From: Natronoarchaeum mannanilyticum
GTDB lineage: Archaea > Halobacteriota > Halobacteria > Halobacteriales > Natronoarchaeaceae
Assembly (NCBI RefSeq): GCF_039522665.1
Contig: NZ_BAAADV010000001.1
Span: 1,381,232-1,437,791, forward strand
Length of the DNA stretch: 56,560 bases
Direction: 5' to 3'
How positions within the stretch are numbered: position 1 is the first letter of the stretch; the number at the start of each line of letters is the position of its first letter. Positions 8,208 to 21,349 of the stretch are shown here, piece after piece. The notes below the pieces were generated by a model that saw only the letters and a program-made list of their open reading frames with translations, was not told the DNA's origin and made no database searches. Made by a program: the position numbers and the translations under genes.

Positions 8208-8567
8208 TCAGCCGCCGTCCTCGTCCGGGTCGGTGAAGTCCGCGTCCGGGAAATTTTCGTTGGCGAGGTCTGTGACGATCTCCTCGGCCTCTTCGGCGGT
8301 GTCGTCGTCGATGCCGTCGATCGCCGGGACGCCGTGGCCGCCGCTCTTTGCGGTCTGGAGCGCGTTACGATTCAGGTTCCCCTCGGGATCGACGACCGGA
8401 ACGTCGAGGTCGGTGAAGTTCTCCGGCGGGAACCCCGACTCCGAGAGCACGAAGTTGTCGGCGATCTCGCCGAGGTCGTCGGTGTCGAAATCCTCCATCT
8501 GCGGGCGATTCCACTCCTCGTCGGTCGTGTCGTCGTACTCCGGTTCGTGGACGTCGTAGTCGGGCAT
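8208..8567 (-). CDS. Acidic hypothetical protein (119 aa)
   Basis: Starts MPDYDVHEPEYDD and is very rich in Asp and Glu, with short motifs such as ESGFPPENFTDLDVPVVDPEGN. No signal peptide, membrane segment or recognised domain. It lies 91 nt downstream of the last gene of the signal-peptidase cluster on the same strand, so it might be the distal cistron, but nothing in the protein links it to secretion. The ATG at 8567 is chosen because upstream sequence is arginine-rich and out of character. Confidence 0.6.
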   Translation of the reverse strand: MPDYDVHEPEYDDTTDEEWNRPQMEDFDTDDLGEIADNFVLSESGFPPENFTDLDVPVVDPEGNLNRNALQTAKSGGHGVPAIDGIDDDTAEEAEEIVTDLANENFPDADFTDPDEDGG

Positions 8568-8658: not shown

Positions 8659-9030
8659 CTACTGCGATCTTTCCGCGGCTTCGTTCCCGCTCTCGACGGT
8701 CCCATTCGGACTTACGCCGTCGTGGCTCGTCGCCGCATCCGAGTTTCCGACGCTCGCGTTCCCTGTGCTTGTGTTCCCTGCGCTCGCGTTTCCGTCCGCC
8801 GCGTCGACGCCGACGCTAGCGTTGCCCGCACTGACATTTCCGGTCGCGTTCTCCGATTCGTCGACCGCCTCGACCGTCGTCGTCCGATCGCCGTCCGCGT
8901 CGGCAGAGATGTTGCCCGTCGCGACGTGGGTGTCGCTAAGCAGTGCGACGGTCCCCGGCCCGCTCGCAACGACGGCGAGGATGATCGCCGAGCACGTAAC
9001 GAGAATGGCGACCCGTCGCGTCGGCGCCAT
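8659..9030 (-). CDS. Small sequon-rich secreted protein, probable SipW-type substrate
   Basis: A 123-aa protein that starts directly after the signal peptidase stop codon. The N-terminal basic/hydrophobic segment (RRVAILVTCSAIILAVVASGPG) is followed by TVALLSDTHVATGNISA, matching the pattern SD-x(4)-TGN/AG-x(3) seen at the mature start of SipW-dependent (TasA/camelysin-type) proteins. The rest is low complexity: repeated GNAS, GNTS and GNVS blocks supply at least seven N-x-S/T glycosylation sequons, along with many Asp and Glu. There is no C-terminal anchor. It is likely exported by the adjacent peptidase and heavily glycosylated. Its function is unknown. Confidence 0.7.
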   Translation of the reverse strand: MAPTRRVAILVTCSAIILAVVASGPGTVALLSDTHVATGNISADADGDRTTTVEAVDESENATGNVSAGNASVGVDAADGNASAGNTSTGNASVGNSDAATSHDGVSPNGTVESGNEAAERSQ

Positions 9031-9930
9031 TCACTCCACCTCGCCGGCGCTGCCGCCGTCGGTTGCGGCGTCCGGCGGAGCGTCACCGACGGTGTCAGGA
9101 ACTGCACCATCCCCTTCGACCGTGTCATCTCCGGCGTCCGCTTCGTCCCGCTCAGTTGGTTCCGAGGATTCCTCTGCCGGATAGCGCTCGACGAGTAGCA
9201 GTCCGCCCGCGGCGAGTCCCGTGAGCAATGATGCGAACGCCACGGCAAACGTCAGCGGCGTCTGCAGCCGAACGGCGACGTACGCCGCGTACGGCGCCAC
9301 GAGCGCGAGCAGGATCGTCGTCGCTTTCAGGTCGGTCGGGTGTATCGTGAGCATCGTCGTATCGTCGGTCGAGTCGCCTTCGTTCGGTTCGGTCTCGGCG
9401 TCGGCGTGCGAGGCGTCGCTCCGCGCGGTCTCGTCCCGGCGTCGTTTGACGAGCAGCCACACCTCCGAGCCCGCGAGCGCGGCCAGCGGGAGTGCGACGA
9501 GCAGCACGAACCCCAGCGCGGTGTTCGCGAACTGGATCACGTACCCGATGTAGGGGATCGTGAACGCCACCGCCCCGATCACGTTCCCCGCGGGCACCTG
9601 CGTCGGATCCGGCTGTTCGTTCGCGTCGCCTTTCGTCTCGAAGGAGAGTTGCCCCCCGCTCTCGTCGACGCCGCTGACGCGGTGGGTCACCGGCGTTCCC
9701 TCGTCCGAGCGGACGAACGTGATAACGTCGCCCTCCTGGATCGACGCCGGATCGGTCTCCTCGACGATGATGGCGTCGCCGGACTCGATCTCCGGCGACA
9801 TACTGTCCGACAGGACGACGAAGCTGTGATCGGCGCCGACCGCGCCCGGGACGGCGTACACCGCGAACGGGACGACGAGCGCCACCAGCACGAGCAGCGC
9901 CGCGATTTTCGCGACGCGACGCTTATCCAT
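9031..9930 (-). CDS. SipW-like archaeal type I signal peptidase with extended C-terminus
   Basis: Membrane serine protease (S26B, ER/archaeal type) that removes signal peptides. The N-terminal anchor spans residues 8-28. Catalytic Ser43 is in SDSMSPEI, His83 in THRVSG replaces the bacterial Lys, and the acidic box is GDANEQPD (D102). A second membrane segment (about 133-160) follows. The protein then continues unusually with a basic loop, an acidic linker, two more hydrophobic segments (about 200-245) and an acidic tail, giving 299 aa where family members often stop after the second segment. The start overlaps the stop of the upstream substrate gene by 8 nt, and the next gene starts at the following base, so the three are translationally coupled. 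Confidence 0.9.
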   Translation of the reverse strand: MDKRRVAKIAALLVLVALVVPFAVYAVPGAVGADHSFVVLSDSMSPEIESGDAIIVEETDPASIQEGDVITFVRSDEGTPVTHRVSGVDESGGQLSFETKGDANEQPDPTQVPAGNVIGAVAFTIPYIGYVIQFANTALGFVLLVALPLAALAGSEVWLLVKRRRDETARSDASHADAETEPNEGDSTDDTTMLTIHPTDLKATTILLALVAPYAAYVAVRLQTPLTFAVAFASLLTGLAAGGLLLVERYPAEESSEPTERDEADAGDDTVEGDGAVPDTVGDAPPDAATDGGSAGEVE

Positions 9931-10978
9931 CGGCGCCCACCTCCTCGGAGCAGACGTAGACGGTCAGGTTGCTGATCGCCGGCCGTTTGCCGGAGGCGTT
10001 GTTGCCCTCGGGATCGGAACACACCTCGCCGCGCGTCCGCGTTGTCGGTGGATCGATGTCGTATGTCTCGGTCACGTCCCCGCCTTTGACGTCGACCTTA
10101 CAGATCGGCGGCGCAGCCGACTCGCTCCCGTCTTTTAATACCCCGACGCTCGCACAGACCGTCTCCTGGTTGTTCCCTTCCTCCTCCTTGTTGGTCACCG
10201 TGAACACCTCGAGCTCGTACGCGTCGTCGCCCTCGAACTCGCCGTACTGCTCGTCGAAGTCGTAGGTTCTGATGCTGAGTTGATCGTCGCTCACCTCGAG
10301 TTTCCCTAGCTTGACGCAGTCGGGGCACTCGGCGGCCGGGCACTCCTCGTCGGGGAACGGGGACTCGACGTCGTTCTCGGAGACGTGTCGACACTGCTGA
10401 GCGTAGAAATCGAGGACCAGCCCCGTTTCGGCGCCGACGACGCCCGTCGCGTCCTCGGGAAGCCGATACTCGACGTCGAGACACAGCTGTTCGCCCGCGC
10501 CCAGGCAGGGGTCGTCCGGATCGTCGAGCCGGATTCCGCCGTGGAACTCCCGTCGCAGCTCCGAGAATGAAATCCACTCGTCGCCGAGCGGGTACCGCCG
10601 CTTCGCGTCGTCGCAGTTCGGACGGACGGCGACCCGCGCTTCGAGGGCTGCACCGAGGGGGTCCGGGACCGGCGGGCAGCCGGTTCGGAACCACAGCCGC
10701 ACCGGGTTCGTCCCCTCGGGGACGGACAACTGGAGTGTCTTCGAGTTCGACTCCCCCGGCGAGATCGATCCGAGCCCCAGCTGCAGGCGACCGTCCTTGA
10801 CATTGCAGCCGTCGCAGGTCACGTCGACGTTGACGCTCCCGGCCTGCAGGTCCCCGGAAACCCCCTCTTCGTCCGAGAGCGAGGCGAGCGTCTTCGCGCC
10901 GGCGGCGCCGAACGCGCCGACGCCTCCGATGCTCGCCAGGAGACTGCGTCGTGTCGGCAGGGAGGACTCGTCAGTCAC
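9923..10978 (-). CDS. SipW-dependent, Cys-rich TasA-like secreted protein B
   Basis: About 351 aa. The N-terminus TRRSLLASIGGVGAFGAAG, then KTLASLSDEEGVSGDLQAGSVNVDV, is the SipW-type signal plus mature start (SDEE...AG-x-[LVI]). The mature part has many cysteines (CDGC, GCPPVPDP, CLGAGEQLCLDVEYRLP, FYAQQCRH, CPAAECPDC), probably disulfides. The segments LCLDVEYRLP and FYAQQCRH recur in protein A at 11393-12550, so the two are paralogues. The GTG at 10978 (VTDESSLPTRRS) is chosen by analogy with protein A (MTDDNHIDLSRRK); an ATG at 11014 would add 12 basic residues. It overlaps the peptidase gene by 8 nt. Confidence 0.82.
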   Translation of the reverse strand: MTDESSLPTRRSLLASIGGVGAFGAAGAKTLASLSDEEGVSGDLQAGSVNVDVTCDGCNVKDGRLQLGLGSISPGESNSKTLQLSVPEGTNPVRLWFRTGCPPVPDPLGAALEARVAVRPNCDDAKRRYPLGDEWISFSELRREFHGGIRLDDPDDPCLGAGEQLCLDVEYRLPEDATGVVGAETGLVLDFYAQQCRHVSENDVESPFPDEECPAAECPDCVKLGKLEVSDDQLSIRTYDFDEQYGEFEGDDAYELEVFTVTNKEEEGNNQETVCASVGVLKDGSESAAPPICKVDVKGGDVTETYDIDPPTTRTRGEVCSDPEGNNASGKRPAISNLTVYVCSEEVGADG

Positions 10979-11392
10979 GGCCGACCGCCTCCGAACTCCG
11001 CGGATCGACGCCATCGCTCCGGCGTCGCTCCGTCGATCGCTACCCCCGGTTCCGCTGTTTGTACAGTCATCTTCGATCGGGCATCTCCGATCGCCCCTGT
11101 CGGACGAGTCGATGCCATCGGTTCCGGACGAGAAACGTCTTGAAAGGAATTAATGTCATACTGAACAGTTTTGCCGACGTATAGGTCGGTAGTGACCGTA
11201 TACCGGCTGTGAGTTGCGTCCCACCGAACTCCGTCTCGCTCACCCGAACGGGAGTCGATCGTCGCGGCGCTGGCGAGGTGCGTCCGTCGATCGAGTGCTG
11301 TGGTGGTTCTTAACATGGTCCCCTCTCCGGGAGACCCACCGGCGGAGTCGAACCGCCGTGCGCCGAGTGGGTCGATGCCGCTGAGTGCGGTG
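10979..11392. other. 414-nt spacer between the two TasA-like genes
   Basis: No convincing gene. An open frame at 10975-11316 on the minus strand lacks family features. The spacer holds a tRNA-minihelix-like structure (11333-11373) just past the stop of protein A. Next to it is the hairpin-prone stretch 11318-11336. An imperfect inverted repeat at 11179-11203 (GTATAGGTC ... GACCGTATAC) overlaps a possible TATA box for the protein B-peptidase transcript. Confidence 0.5.
11333..11373 (-). other. tRNA acceptor/T-arm minihelix-like structure
   Basis: Read on the minus strand: ACCCACT (11372-11366), an 8-nt connector, GGCGG (11357-11353), loop TTCGACT, CCGCC (11345-11341), then directly GGTGGGT (11340-11334). 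The loop fits the T-loop consensus TTCRANY with a perfect 5-bp T-stem. The two 7-mers pair fully (six Watson-Crick pairs plus one T-G) with no gap on the 3' side, as in a tRNA acceptor stem. The D and anticodon arms are absent and no CCA follows. It could be a tRNA remnant or attachment site, or an RNA-processing signal in the mRNA. Confidence 0.5.
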
Positions 11393-12550
11393 CTACTGTA
11401 TACCCGTGCTCACGCACATACTGGTGACTTCGAGCCCGTCGATCACTTCACCGACGTTGACCTCGATGTTCTCAGTCACATCATTGACATCCAGCCCAAG
11501 GTACGAGACGTCCGCGTCATCGACATTCCCGAAGAGAATCTGTGCGGTTCCGTCGTCGTCGAAATCTAACTCGACGTATGCACCGTACCGGTTCTCTGGA
11601 GTCTCGTCGAACTCGCCGAGATGGTCTGTCACCCACACGAACTCATCGTTACCGTGGTCGGCAGCCGTGATCTCTCCCGTGAACGGATCGCCGTTCTCGT
11701 CCTCGACCTCGATCTCGAGCACGTACGGGTCCGGGAGAGTGATGTCTAGCAGCTGGTTGTACTGCTCCTCTAGGTCAAGCGAGAGCTCGGTACAGTAGGG
11801 GTTGTTCTCGCCGTCATTGTGCCGGCACTGCTCGGCGTAGAACTGGAGGTCGAACCCGACCGAGTCGGTCTGTATCTCATTGCCGACGTCCGTGGGAATC
11901 TCCCAGTCGATGCAGAGGCAGGTGTTGTCTCCCGAGGCGTCGAAACACGCTCGCTCGCCGCCTTCATCACCATCGCCGTCGAGCGGAAGTCCCATCTGGT
12001 TCTCGGTCAGGAAGTCGGCGAGCGACCCGGACCAGATTTCTGTCGAACTCTCGATGTCCTTGTTCGGCTTGAATTTATCACCGACCTCGTTGAGTTCGCA
12101 GTAACTGACGGTAACGTCGATACTCTGGGCAAGTTCGCCTTCGCCCGCGCCATCAGCATCGTCGACTTCCGCTTCGGGCTCGGTCAGACCGTTCCCGTGG
12201 TTTTCGGTGAGCTCACCACCGAGCCACAGGTACGCGGGATTGGAGTTGATTCGCGGGCAGAACGCCATGGTTCCGCTGTCGCCCGGCTTCACGTCCCCGA
12301 GTTCGAAACTGACGGCGTCTCCGTCGGCGGTTTCGGAAAGGCTTCCCTTGCCGGCCTTCCCCTGATCCCAGTAGGAGTAGTAGTCAACCATCAGGTTGAG
12401 CTTGCCCGCCGTGATGACGTTGTCGAACGATTCCTCGTCGTTGAAGTACGCGCTCGTGCCGAAGCCGGCGCCCGCGGAGGCGACGCCGATGGCGCCGAGA
12501 CTCCCGAGCACCTTGCGGCGCGAGAGGTCGATGTGGTTGTCGTCGGTCAT
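11393..12550 (-). CDS. SipW-dependent, Cys-containing TasA-like secreted protein A
   Basis: A 385-aa protein. SRRKVLGSLGAIGVASAGAGFGTSAYFNDEE, given here only as its key parts RRKVLGSLG and SAYFNDEESFDN, then ITAGKLNLMVDY, is a classical SipW-dependent signal and mature start. The body is acidic, with GDVKPGDSGTMAF (a TasA/camelysin-type strand), CLCIDWEIP and FYAEQCRH, the last two shared with protein B. The C-terminal third looks like a separate beta-rich domain. TasA-like proteins form extracellular fibres or pili, so a surface-fibre role is plausible. Base composition looks lower in GC than the flanking genes, hinting at transfer. The ATG at 12550 has GGGAG about 8 nt before it. Confidence 0.83.
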   Translation of the reverse strand: MTDDNHIDLSRRKVLGSLGAIGVASAGAGFGTSAYFNDEESFDNVITAGKLNLMVDYYSYWDQGKAGKGSLSETADGDAVSFELGDVKPGDSGTMAFCPRINSNPAYLWLGGELTENHGNGLTEPEAEVDDADGAGEGELAQSIDVTVSYCELNEVGDKFKPNKDIESSTEIWSGSLADFLTENQMGLPLDGDGDEGGERACFDASGDNTCLCIDWEIPTDVGNEIQTDSVGFDLQFYAEQCRHNDGENNPYCTELSLDLEEQYNQLLDITLPDPYVLEIEVEDENGDPFTGEITAADHGNDEFVWVTDHLGEFDETPENRYGAYVELDFDDDGTAQILFGNVDDADVSYLGLDVNDVTENIEVNVGEVIDGLEVTSMCVSTGIQ

Positions 12551-12935
12551 GGATTCTCCCGGACGGGCGCTCAGTGGCCCGACCGGCTGTTTCAGCCGAG
12601 AAGAGAGCTGTATATTGTTATTTGATGACAAGAACGATCGAACGAATCGATAGAGGGCTCGAACGAGTCGTTGCACCGCTTCGAACGGCTCGTTTGACGA
12701 GGGACGAACCCATCCAATCGGCGATTGGAACCCTTTCCACTCGGTGGCAATCCGAGTAAAGGGCCTCTGAACTAGTTCTATCGATTTCGAAACTCTCGGC
12801 GTTTCTAACTCCCATTTCCGTTAGCATCAGGCCGACGGAGACGGGACGTTCCACCTCGATGAAATCTAAGTATCCTTATACGGGATATACTAATATCTCC
12901 CCGGTATCTGATTCGGATTTGAAGATTCAATTGCG
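12551..12935. other. 385-nt divergent promoter region with two inverted repeats
   Basis: Separates the minus-strand TasA-like/SipW genes from the plus-strand DUF7344-like regulator. It contains a perfect inverted repeat TCCAATCG-G-CGATTGGA at 12713-12729 and a second, ACTCGG-N7-CCGAGT, at 12739-12756. A minus-strand TATA-like CAATATACAG lies near 12609-12618 and AT-rich plus-strand boxes (CCTTATACGG, GATATACTAATATC) near 12872-12897. The region is clearly less GC-rich than the coding DNA. No small ORF is convincing. Confidence 0.5.
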
Positions 12936-13466
12936 ATGTTCAGAAAGAATTCGTTATCTGAGGGGGAGATCTACGAGGTGCTCGCCAATCGCCGTCGCCG
13001 CGAAACGATCAGAAATCTGTCCGTCGCGTCCGACGGCGGCTCGGTCTCGCTGCAGGAGCTTTCCGAACGGATCGCCGAGCGCGAGACCGGCGAAACGCCG
13101 CCGCCCCGAACCGTCAGGGAGAGCGTGTACAACTCGTTACACCAGTCCCACCTCCCGAAACTGGAAGCACTCGGCGTCGTCGTCTACGACCGCGACGAGC
13201 GCGAAGTCCGTCTCCACGACCGGGCTCGGGACGTCAACCGCTACATGGAGGTCCGAACCGACTACGGGTTCACGTGGAGCGAGATCTACCGGTCGATCGG
13301 GGTCGCCGGACTGACGGTCGTCGTCGCGGCGCTGGGCGGCGTCCCGCCGTTGGGCTGGGTTGATCCGATCCTGTGGGCTTCGGGATTCCTCCTCGCGTTC
13401 GTCGTCGCCACGTCCTACCAGCTGTGGACGAACCGGTGGTACGTCTGGCGGGCGCTCGGGCGGTGA
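12936..13466 (+). CDS. DUF7344-like winged-helix protein with two membrane segments
   Basis: A 176-aa protein. Residues 1-105 form a winged-helix of the haloarchaeal DUF7344 type (LSEGEIYEVLANRRRRETIRNLS, LQELSERIAERE, then SLHQSHLPKLEALGVVVYDRDEREVRL). Two hydrophobic segments follow (about 120-138 and 143-165). It is probably a membrane-tethered DNA-binding regulator with the DNA-binding part in the cytoplasm. It is divergent from the TasA-like/SipW genes across 385 nt containing two inverted repeats, so it is a reasonable candidate regulator of that locus; this is inferred from position only. Confidence 0.8.
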   Translation: MFRKNSLSEGEIYEVLANRRRRETIRNLSVASDGGSVSLQELSERIAERETGETPPPRTVRESVYNSLHQSHLPKLEALGVVVYDRDEREVRLHDRARDVNRYMEVRTDYGFTWSEIYRSIGVAGLTVVVAALGGVPPLGWVDPILWASGFLLAFVVATSYQLWTNRWYVWRALGR

Positions 13467-17591: not shown

Positions 17592-18932
17592 TCACCGCCC
17601 GACCCAGCGCAACAGCAGTAGCGTCCCCTCGTAGAGGGTGACCATCGTCACCGCGACGATCAGCGGCGCCATCCCCGTCGGGTCCGGGCTGAAGAGGAAC
17701 GCGAGCCCCAGGAACGCGCCCCAGAACAGCAGCCGGTTGTCCGCCAGCCACTGACGCGAGGTGATGCCCATCATCGTCGCCAGCATGATGAACAGCGGGA
17801 TCTGGAACACCACGGCGAGCATCCCCATCATCGTCAAGATGAGGTTGAACGTCTCGCGCAGCCCGAACGCGACGTTGGCGGTCACGTCGGAGTAGTAGAG
17901 GAAGTACGTGAACAGCCCCGGGAGCACCAGGAAGTACGCGAAGGAGATGCCGACGACCGCGAGCACGAGGCTGGTCGGCACCGCCGCGAGGTAGTAGCGC
18001 CGCTCGTTGGGGTACAGCCCCGGCCGCATGAACAGGTAGGTCTCGTACACCGCGACGGGCAGGGCAATCGTCAGCCCTGCGAGGCTCGCGAGCTTCAGCT
18101 CGGTGAGCTTGAGCTCCAGCGGGCCGTACACGTGGGGCGACGCGACCTCCTGTGCGGGCAGGACGCCGAACCAGATCGTCGTGATCAGCCGCTCGGCGAT
18201 CGGGAAGGCGACGACGGTGACGACCGACGCCGCGAACAGCACGATCGCCAGCCGGTTGATCATCTCCTCGACGTGGTCGGCCAGCGGCATCTCCTCGTCG
18301 TCGGGCGGCTGGCTGATCCCGATCTCGGAGGACTCGTCGTCGGGCGTCTCGTCGGCCACGCTGCCGGTGCCGGCGACGCCGACGTCCGAGCCGGCGTGGC
18401 TCCCGTCTGTCCGGGCGGTCGGCTCTGGCGGCTCGTCCGCGACGCCGTTCGTGTCGTCGTCGGGCGCGACGCCGTTCGCGGCGGGCGGCGCCTCGTCGAC
18501 GCCGGTTTCGTTCGTGATGTCGTCCACGTCGGGTTTCGAGACGTCGTCGTCGCGCGTCTCCGGAGCGCCGGCGCCCGCGTCGTCGTCCTCGGGAAGCATC
18601 CGGTCGGTCGACGGTTCCACGGCGTCGTCGCTCGGCGCGGCGTCGGGATCAGCGTCGGCGGCGTCCCGACCGTCCGCGGTCGGGCTGTCGGCGTCGCCTC
18701 TCTCGTCGCCGCTGTGGTCGATCTCGGTGGGTTTGTGGTACGGTCGGTAGGAGTCGGGCGGCGACGCCGCCTCGTCGTCGTCGGATTCGGCGCCGGGATC
18801 GGCTTCGTCGTCGTCGGCGTTCAGCTCGGATTCGACCTCCCGCTCGACTTCCGACGATACCGACGGCTCCTCGTCTCGCTCGTCGTCGCGCTCGTCGGGG
18901 ACCCGGTCCCCGTCGCCCGGCTCCTCGGCCAT
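17592..18932 (-). CDS. tatC: Twin-arginine translocase TatC with long acidic N-terminal extension
   Basis: A 446-aa protein; the last 225 residues are a complete six-span TatC (MPLADHVEEMINRLAIVLFAAS, FMRPGLYPNERRYYLAAVP, FAYFLVLPGLFTYFLYYSD, MMGMLAVVFQIPLFIML). It should recognise Tat signals on folded proteins. The first 220 or so residues are almost wholly Asp, Glu, Ala, Ser and Pro, with a patch SYRPYHKPTEIDHSG, and are expected to be disordered and cytoplasmic. The ATG at 18932 is preferred over one 29 codons upstream, which adds an unrelated basic segment. It is divergent from the double TatC gene 107 nt away, the arrangement expected for haloarchaeal TatCo and TatCt. Confidence 0.92.
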   Translation of the reverse strand: MAEEPGDGDRVPDERDDERDEEPSVSSEVEREVESELNADDDEADPGAESDDDEAASPPDSYRPYHKPTEIDHSGDERGDADSPTADGRDAADADPDAAPSDDAVEPSTDRMLPEDDDAGAGAPETRDDDVSKPDVDDITNETGVDEAPPAANGVAPDDDTNGVADEPPEPTARTDGSHAGSDVGVAGTGSVADETPDDESSEIGISQPPDDEEMPLADHVEEMINRLAIVLFAASVVTVVAFPIAERLITTIWFGVLPAQEVASPHVYGPLELKLTELKLASLAGLTIALPVAVYETYLFMRPGLYPNERRYYLAAVPTSLVLAVVGISFAYFLVLPGLFTYFLYYSDVTANVAFGLRETFNLILTMMGMLAVVFQIPLFIMLATMMGITSRQWLADNRLLFWGAFLGLAFLFSPDPTGMAPLIVAVTMVTLYEGTLLLLRWVGR

Positions 18933-19039
18933 CTGATCGAATGTAGGCGCACGGCGCGTTATAGGCCTTTTTACTGCACCGCAGGACCGCGCGGGGAGAA
19001 GAAGATTGATAACGGGCAATCGATTACCCCTCGGTACCT

Positions 19040-21349
19040 ATGAGTTCGGCCGTCGACGAGGACACCGTCCAGACCGTCCAGGCCGGCCGCGAGACGATCG
19101 CGGGCGTGCTCTCGTCGGCCCAGACGCACCTCCAGAAAGCCTTCGTCGCGTTCGTGATCGGGATGATGGGCACGATCTGGGCGATGCGAGCGGTCGTCTG
19201 GGACTTCCTGGAGGCCAACACCAAGTCCCGGATGAACGCGGCGACGGCCGAGGCGACCGACATCGTCGTCCGGACGCCGTTCGACGTCATCCTGCTGCAG
19301 GTGAAGATCGGGCTCGTCGTCGGCGTCCTCTTTGCCGTCCCCGTCTTGCTGTACTACGGGCGCGAGGCGATCCTCGAACGCGCGGACTCGACGATCCCGA
19401 TCAACGCGCGGCGGGTCGCCGGCTTCGCGGTGGTGTCGGTCGCGCTGTTCGTCGGCGGCGTCATCTACGCCTACGGGGTCTTCTTCCCCTACATGTTCGA
19501 GTTCCTGGCGAGCAACGCGAACCAGGCCGGCGTGAAGCCGAGTTACGGCATCGTCGAGTACACCGAGTTCATCCTGCTGTTGACGCTGTCATTTGGATTG
19601 GCCGCCCAGCTCCCGATGGCGATGGCGGTCCTGACGTACACCGAGATCGTCCCCTACGAGACGTTCCGCGACAAGTGGAAGTACGCCGTGCTGGGCATCT
19701 TCGTCTTCGGCGCCGTGTTCTCACCCCCGGACCCGTTCACGCAGGTCATGTGGGCGCTCCCGCTGGTCGCGCTGTACGGCGCCAGCCTCGGCCTCTCGAA
19801 GCTCATCACGAACGTCAAGCGCGCCGGGCGAGCGGCCGACCCGGTCGAGGCCGAGAAGTTCCGCCGCCGCGGCAAGCATCTCGCGCTCGCGGTCGTGCTC
19901 GCGTTCGTCGGGACGATCCTCGTCCTCTCGACCGGCGGGCCGACGGTCGCCAACGAGTACCTCCTGCCGGCGCTGCCCGACCTGATCAGGCCGGACGGCG
20001 AGTTCGTCGCCGGCGATCCGCTGGCCCGCGTCTGGGTCGCGATCCAGGCCACCGCCGTCGTCGCGCTGCTCGGGATCGCCTACAACACCGCTCGGGTGCT
20101 CCGCTCGCCCGTCCAGCCGCGCAACACCGGCCGCTCCTCGACGGCGTCGGCCGCGGCGGACGCCGACGGCGAGCCGGCGCCCGCCAGCACCGGCGGTCCC
20201 GCCGACCTCGATCTCGACGAACTGGACGTCGCGGGCGTCCGCGCGGCGCCGCCCGAGGCGTTCCTCTCGCTGACCGAGGACGAGGCGCTGGCCCACGCCA
20301 AGCGCGCGATGGACGACGACCAGCCCGACAAGGCCCAGCTGATCCTCGACCGGTTCGACGAGTTGGAGGCCGAGCACGACGCCGACGACGGGGATGCTGC
20401 TGACGCGGCCGACGCCGCTGCCGCAGACGCCGCGGACGGCGAGGGTGCCACCGACGCGGACGACTCCGGGAACCCCGTCACCGGCACGGCGGCGGGCATG
20501 ATGGACGCGTTCACGGAAGACGAGACGACCGAGGAGGAGATCGGCGGCTACTTCTACGATCTCCGGTTCATCGTCTCCAGCCTCACCTCGAAGATGTTCC
20601 GCATCGTCGGGCTGATGATCGCGGTGTTCGTCCTCACGTTCTTCTGGCTCTACTCCGGCGGGATCGGCCGCATCCGGAAGCAGTTCCTCGCGCAGGTGCC
20701 CGAGGACCTGCGCCCGGAGGACGGCGGTACGGAGGCGCTCGAAGCCACCGGGGAGATCATCGCGCTCCACCCCGTCGAGGTGCTGATCTTCGAGGTCCAG
20801 GTCAGTACGATCCTCGCGGTGGTGATCGCACTGCCGCTGATACTGTACTACGCCTGGCCGGCCCTCGAAGAGCGCGGGCTCGTCGCCCAGGGTCGAGTCT
20901 CCCGCTCGGTCTTTTTCGTCTGGGGCGGCTGCCTCGTCGCCGGCCTGATCGGCGGCAGCCTGCTGGGCTTTTTCGTCATCGCGCCGGAGCTGATATCCTA
21001 CTTCGTCGCGGACGCGAAGGCCGCCGGGATGATCGTCTCCTACCGGCTGCGCAACTTCTTCTGGCTGATCTTCTCGCTGACGATCGGGATCGGCCTGCTG
21101 GCGAACATCCCCGTCACCATGCTGCTGTTCCACCGCAGCGGCGTCCTCTCGTTCCGGTCGATGATGGACCGCTGGCGCGTGGTCGTGCTCGCGATCTTCG
21201 CGCTCGCCGGCGTGGCGACGCCCAACGGCATCCTCACGATGTTGCTGTTCGCGGCGCCGGTCGCGCTGGCGTACCTGATCGGGCTGGGCATCCTCTGGGC
21301 GGTCACCCTGCCCGGGCGGCTGCGGGGTCGCGGCGGCTCGCCGGCCTGA
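19040..21349 (+). CDS. tatC: Fused double TatC (TatCt-type) translocase subunit
   Basis: A 769-aa haloarchaea-specific TatC fusion. The first TatC-like unit covers about 1-285 (VGVLFAVPVLLYYGREAILE, FGLAAQLPMAMAVLTYTEIVP). Extra membrane segments near 290-345 lead into an acidic, Ala-rich linker (about 350-490). A second TatC unit covers about 505-769 (IALPLILYYAWPALEERGLV, NIPVTMLLFHRSGVLSF). About fourteen spans are expected, as described for TatCt of halophiles, where Tat is the main export route. The start at 19040 follows an AT-rich stretch. A GC hairpin directly after the stop may end the transcript. Confidence 0.92.
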   Translation: MSSAVDEDTVQTVQAGRETIAGVLSSAQTHLQKAFVAFVIGMMGTIWAMRAVVWDFLEANTKSRMNAATAEATDIVVRTPFDVILLQVKIGLVVGVLFAVPVLLYYGREAILERADSTIPINARRVAGFAVVSVALFVGGVIYAYGVFFPYMFEFLASNANQAGVKPSYGIVEYTEFILLLTLSFGLAAQLPMAMAVLTYTEIVPYETFRDKWKYAVLGIFVFGAVFSPPDPFTQVMWALPLVALYGASLGLSKLITNVKRAGRAADPVEAEKFRRRGKHLALAVVLAFVGTILVLSTGGPTVANEYLLPALPDLIRPDGEFVAGDPLARVWVAIQATAVVALLGIAYNTARVLRSPVQPRNTGRSSTASAAADADGEPAPASTGGPADLDLDELDVAGVRAAPPEAFLSLTEDEALAHAKRAMDDDQPDKAQLILDRFDELEAEHDADDGDAADAADAAAADAADGEGATDADDSGNPVTGTAAGMMDAFTEDETTEEEIGGYFYDLRFIVSSLTSKMFRIVGLMIAVFVLTFFWLYSGGIGRIRKQFLAQVPEDLRPEDGGTEALEATGEIIALHPVEVLIFEVQVSTILAVVIALPLILYYAWPALEERGLVAQGRVSRSVFFVWGGCLVAGLIGGSLLGFFVIAPELISYFVADAKAAGMIVSYRLRNFFWLIFSLTIGIGLLANIPVTMLLFHRSGVLSFRSMMDRWRVVVLAIFALAGVATPNGILTMLLFAAPVALAYLIGLGILWAVTLPGRLRGRGGSPA

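Follow-up and report, generated by a model that had tools for sequence, protein, structure and literature searches.

Bacterial biofilms are held together by TasA fibres, and archaeal relatives of these fibres are known from hyperthermophiles. Does a haloarchaeal gene cluster in which a SipW-group signal peptidase lies beside its candidate substrates encode a fibre of the same type? The question was addressed for positions 8659-13466 of a 56,560-nucleotide stretch of Natronoarchaeum mannanilyticum DNA (GCF_039522665.1, contig NZ_BAAADV010000001.1, 1,381,232 to 1,437,791, forward strand), referred to as a whole as the window. The cluster consists of the genes SUB1 and SUB2, the peptidase gene, SUB3 and a divergent gene for a membrane winged-helix protein of the DUF7344 family; the five genes that an earlier, sequence-only reading had listed were all found at their positions. 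The tight coupling that it described holds for SUB2, the peptidase gene and SUB3 (8-bp overlap and 0-bp gap), and not for SUB1, which lies ~414 bp upstream of SUB2. As set out below, the locus probably encodes a TasA-type extracellular fibre or a fibre-like surface layer.

Predicted fold of the SUB1 and SUB2 products

SUB1 (11393..12550, minus strand) starts at the ATG at 12550 rather than at the start of the longest open reading frame (ORF), and encodes 385 amino acids. Its product comprises a twin-arginine (RR) signal peptide, a SipW-type cleavage region, a TasA-like beta-sandwich (approximately residues 34-250) and a lineage-specific C-terminal region, the mature protein beginning with AYFNDEES. 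Thirty columns are invariant across 20 relatives, among them R11 and R12 and positions within the motifs KPGD, VGNEIQ and AEQ..RHN.

The mature SUB1 protein was modelled with AlphaFold (AF2) from an alignment with 57 sequences of named haloarchaeal loci. The predicted local distance difference test score (pLDDT) exceeds 90 for 137 residues, mostly in the conserved beta-sandwich. At the N-terminus of the mature protein, no strand is predicted for residues 1-18, and confidence is low for residues 1-7. When this model was compared with 350,542 PDB chains using Foldseek, the only match with an expectation value (E) below 0.001 was the TasA fibre 8aur (E 5.7e-6, probability 1.00), and the runner-up was far behind (E 0.02, probability 0.08). 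The SUB2 model (mean pLDDT 89.7) matched both TasA 8aur (E 3.8e-4) and the Pyrodictium protein CanA 9hdi (E 6.9e-4) with a probability of 1.00; its remaining matches, many of them beta-sandwich proteins, were of low probability and were treated as noise. The predicted folds are thus related to TasA, as the sequence-only reading had proposed.

SUB2 (9923..10978, minus strand) encodes an RR signal peptide, a TasA-like domain with extra cysteines and a second C-terminal domain. Its longest ORF begins at 11014, but the GTG at 10978 is preferred as the probable start, because BLASTP pairs the VTDESSLPTRR start with the MTDDNHIDLSRR start of SUB1. The two proteins are homologous over the whole domain (BLASTP E 3e-10), and their profiles align by hhalign with 99.8% probability (E 4e-30).

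The sequence relation to TasA was followed through archaeal proteins from outside the haloarchaea. TasA found such proteins by phmmer with E 1.2e-11 when the signal was included and with a best value of 7.8e-7 for the mature part only, and the SUB1 profile found proteins of the same set with E 5.6e-30 and better (98.5 bits and E 5.6e-30 for the protein of locus L152). The mature part of the TasA query was confirmed to be identical to the 8aur chain. Searched against the PDB sequences, the SUB1 profile returned no real relative, only chance matches and the signal region of the pilin 9p0a.

Conservation of the cluster

No related locus was found with the single SUB1 sequence as query, and the search succeeded with an alignment. 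SUB1 relatives are present, often in several copies, in 148 of the 392 sampled genomes of the same order, and a SipW-group peptidase (E <= 1e-20) in 160. In raw genome counts that ignore relatedness, SUB1 and the peptidase occur together in 146 genomes, SUB1 occurs alone in two, and neither is found in 230. In most of ~97 loci (L043-L062, L063-L139) the order is divergent DUF7344 gene, run of SUB1 genes, SUB2, SipW gene and SUB3. SipW follows in 37 of 43 loci; the gene preceding it is of the SUB2 type in 62 of ~71 loci, and the two genes overlap in 58 of 71. The linkage of peptidase and substrates is therefore strongly conserved (146 of 148 genomes with SUB1, and a kept gene order), and the window locus, with its single SUB1, is a reduced form of the cluster. 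The compact surface-fibre system put forward by the sequence-only reading is in this respect not peculiar to one genome: the cluster is found in over a third of the sampled haloarchaeal genomes and may represent a widespread, apparently unnamed surface-fibre system.

Outside the order, shorter SUB1-like proteins are encoded in 19 of the genomes sampled from the phylum, and most of the loci examined there carry SUB1-like genes beside SipW-type peptidases, one of them also with a DUF7344 gene. Each of four non-haloarchaeal loci (L148, L149, L152, L156) combines a pair of SipW-type peptidases with several TasA-like genes, whose signals are of the Sec type. Adjacent duplicate clusters are seen in some haloarchaeal genomes (L057, L101), in the form of a second SUB1 run with a second DUF7344 gene or of convergent SipW pairs. 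A protein of ~270 amino acids with a YTGxNRCxPCT motif, which matches no Pfam or NCBIfam model, often lies beside the locus (L044, L047, L048, L052, L056, L058 and many of L063-L139), and none adjoins the locus of the window. An acidic protein of ~119 amino acids without Pfam match is encoded downstream of SUB3 (8211-8567, minus strand) and, in the loci seen, does not belong to the conserved cluster.

The conserved part of SUB1 is joined to very different C-termini. In about a quarter of the relatives more than 100 residues follow the region matched by the profile, and these extensions form at least 19 sequence clusters; one relative has a VWA domain in this part, NosD-like parts also occur, and the C-terminal region of the SUB1 in the window is shared with one genome of the same family. 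SUB1 is therefore a conserved TasA-like domain plus variable C-terminal domains, including VWA. Such diversity, and the several different SUB1 paralogs per locus in relatives, would be expected if SUB1 and SUB2 were monomeric or cell-attached surface proteins, such as adhesins or binding proteins, for which the TasA-like domain and the SipW signal would serve export and anchoring only, not polymerisation. This alternative is unlikely in our estimation, as the fold match is specific to the entry for an assembled TasA fibre, and a dedicated SipW with multiple homologous subunits resembles the sipW-calY and tapA-sipW-tasA operons (PMC10151520).

Export signals and proposed cleavage and assembly

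The SipW-group (archaeal type) signal peptidase I (9031..9930, minus strand) scores 127.4 bits with TIGR02228 (cut-off 51.85) and 110 bits with the Bacillus SipW equivalog NF046067, below its cut-off of 190. The proposed catalytic residues Ser43, His83 and Asp102 are borne out by their invariance in all aligned relatives having the column (76/76, 75/75 and 76/76, respectively). All three candidate substrates had been credited with SipW-type starts. The SipW-type signal model TIGR04088 recognises SUB1 (32.6 bits, cut-off 19), while SUB2 (13.9 bits) and SUB3 (14.6 bits, a weak match in a whole-genome search) stay below the cut-off; the pattern of the three proteins nevertheless far exceeds chance, and that of SUB3 recurs in ~50 relatives. 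Of the three, SUB1 and SUB2 are TasA-like by their fold matches, and SUB3 shares only the signal motif.

The signals have a further property that the sequence-only reading overlooked. In haloarchaea an RR pair precedes the SipW motif in 309 of 337 SUB1 and 63 of 66 SUB2 proteins, compared with one of 23 non-haloarchaeal relatives, and SUB1, SUB2 and SUB3 of the window each have the pair and each agree with a motif rule for the twin-arginine translocation (Tat) pathway. The Tat route carries most of the haloarchaeal secretome (PMC9263693). On the basis of this use and of the RR signals, the export of the haloarchaeal TasA-type system appears to have been re-routed to Tat, which is the probable export pathway of SUB1 and SUB2. 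Two divergent TatC genes lie at 17592-21349 of the window (PF00902, E 1.7e-41 and 1.2e-78), ~4 kb from the DUF7344 gene, which may be a coincidence.

In the assembly that we propose, SUB1 would be the main fibre subunit and SUB2, usually present as a single copy beside the peptidase, a second TasA-like subunit acting, for example, as base, cap or nucleator, with SUB3 as a small and perhaps membrane-held partner. SUB1 and SUB2 would leave the cell by the Tat pathway, SipW would cut before the AYFND-type start and free the N-terminal strand, and this strand would enter the next subunit by donor-strand assembly, as in TasA, with the C-terminal regions of SUB1 displayed on the fibre. A more specific version, which we offer tentatively and with much less confidence than the fibre as such, is a donor-strand fibre of Tat-folded subunits in which the donor strand would stay next to the signal peptide until SipW releases it, so that the cut would itself trigger assembly, the interchangeable C-terminal domains making it a display scaffold. 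The twin-arginine switch poses the question of whether a fibre subunit can cross the membrane already folded and be made ready for assembly by removal of its signal.

Several results weigh against a TasA-type fibre. The evidence consists of gene sequences and structure models, and is indirect as to filaments. Superposition of SUB1 on TasA gives modest template-modelling scores (0.34 when normalised to the query, 0.49 when normalised to the target), the C-terminal ~40 residues of the SUB1 model are unreliable, and the archaeal bundling pilus is absent among the listed Foldseek matches of SUB1. The hhalign comparison of SUB1 with a single TasA sequence is weak (probability 5%, P 0.008), and for this reason homology was argued via intermediates. 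Fourteen genomes have the peptidase and no detected SUB1, and the co-occurrence counts carry the limit on relatedness given above. As to export, a stricter Tat motif rule accepts only 204 of 337 SUB1 proteins (54 of 66 for SUB2), and general Tat profiles gave no match at E <= 1 to SUB1 or to SUB2; the only Tat-related profile match is that of formate_TAT to SUB1 (E 0.23). Finally, SUB1 reaches 18.1 bits with the Pfam camelysin family PF12389 (Peptidase_M73), under the gathering score of 22.5, and it was therefore filed as TasA-like and not as a member of the camelysin family; the Pfam camelysin search across the host genome gave no match.

The resemblance to Peptidase_M73, together with SUB1-like relatives outside the haloarchaea whose scores of 44.0 and 32.5 bits exceed its cut-off, raises the idea of a secreted camelysin-like protease system in place of a structural one. 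The Peptidase_M73 match, however, covers mainly the signal and first strand, no HExxH-type metal site is found among the invariant positions of SUB1, and the structure that SUB1 matches in fold is that of a fibre, so that a protease system is highly improbable.

SUB3 and the divergent promoter

SUB3 (8659..9030, minus strand) is a short low-complexity protein without TasA-like domain, having one N-terminal hydrophobic segment, the SipW-like motif VALLSDTHV and an Asn/Ser/Gly-rich tail with eight N-X-S/T sequons. The corresponding gene in the ~50 relatives directly follows SipW, usually with an ATGA overlap. Most genes of this type lack a Tat motif, only four of 45 agreeing with the rule, as the SUB3 of the window does.

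The divergent gene (12936..13466, plus strand) encodes a winged-helix protein of the DUF7344 family (PF24035, 93.9 bits, gathering score 27.8), whose C-terminus carries hydrophobic membrane segments, in agreement with its first description as a DUF7344-like membrane protein; its role as a regulator is that of a candidate. Of the 70 loci of relatives that could be assessed, 60 have a divergent DUF7344 gene at most two genes away on the upstream side of the SUB1 run, and in none does it point the same way. Upstream of SUB1, on the minus strand, three copies of CGTTCGA (TCGAACG on the plus strand) at 12638-12644, 12659-12665 and 12681-12687, spaced by 21 and 22 bp, form a candidate operator. The exact repeat pair 12638-12665 is unique in the window, where 0.22 would be expected even with one mismatch allowed. 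A TATA-like box candidate, TAACAA (12615..12620, minus strand), lies 24 bp past the start of the last repeat, which agrees within 1 bp with the TAACTA/TAGCTA box of relatives. In these, CGTT pairs (21/22 bp) end exactly 25 bp before the box in 14 of 15 regions. Repeats of 5-mers in the promoter regions of 63 non-redundant relatives peak at lags 21, 22, 31, 32 and 43, but control regions likewise show an excess at lag 21; since autocorrelation alone is for this reason not decisive, we relied on the fixed 25-bp offset. Control of the SUB1 promoter by the DUF7344 protein, through putative binding to these phased repeats, is probable and would give a candidate function to one branch of a large unstudied family. 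The host genome contains 32 DUF7344 domain matches, forming a large uncharacterised regulator-like family. Scans for sigma-70 promoters and terminators were uninformative. In the literature searched, one key paper lying outside it, DUF7344 was unmentioned and SipW was not paired with haloarchaea.

Comparison with known systems

A second locus of the host genome (C1:1026071-1031566; L160, 3072-8566) has a layout similar to that of the SUB1 cluster, with a divergent DUF7344 gene, a TafE-family fimbrial adapter, a TafF-like CARDB protein, a TIGR02228 peptidase and a DUF5305 protein. Its TafE-like protein scores above the NF052522 cut-off (E 9e-55), has an RR signal and is similar to the PDB entry 9p0a, "Pilin" (E 9e-11). 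The peptidase, the second TIGR02228 match of the genome, was considered as a general peptidase and rejected, as it belongs to this locus. This points to haloarchaeal fimbriae being encoded in a comparable arrangement, and it therefore strengthens the fibre reading.

The Taf fimbriae (NF052520-NF052523) and the SUB1 cluster thus have in common RR signals, a dedicated signal peptidase, a divergent DUF7344 gene and their presence in one genome, and the cluster might itself be taken for a variant of the Taf system, not of TasA type. None of its proteins scores above the cut-off of the TafA, TafC, TafE or TafF models. The only match is that of TafA to SUB1 (E 0.077), which favours such a variant weakly, as it spans no more than ~25 residues within the signal region and falls far short of the cut-off (13 versus 190 bits). 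The mature subunits belong to other families, and it is TasA that the mature domain of SUB1 matches, which makes a Taf variant very unlikely.

Read as a TasA-type system, the cluster can also be compared with archaeal structures. The AbpA bundling pili of Pyrobaculum calidifontis were reportedly presented by Wang in 2022 as a TasA-like archaeal fibre; they belong to another archaeal lineage, and are not among the listed fold matches of SUB1. The cannulae of Pyrodictium (CanA; 9hdi, 7uii, 9h8b) resemble SUB2 in the TasA-like domain, with match probabilities up to 1.00, a likeness of predicted fold, and are tubes.

Close parallels are seen with the tapA-sipW-tasA operon of Bacillus subtilis and sipW-calY of B. 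cereus (8aur; PMC9674648, PMC10151520), which share with the haloarchaeal locus SipW beside its substrates, more than one substrate per locus, the A.FND SipW-type start, the TasA beta-sandwich and the motifs KPGD and GN..Q.S...F.F.A.Q. The Bacillus proteins have Sec-type signals, whereas those of the haloarchaeal locus have RR signals; the latter locus also lacks a TapA-type match and has variable C-terminal domains on SUB1 and the partners SUB2, SUB3 and DUF7344. The TasA-like domain and SipW are known elements, as in bacteria, and the RR signals, the display domains and the nameless partner families are new.

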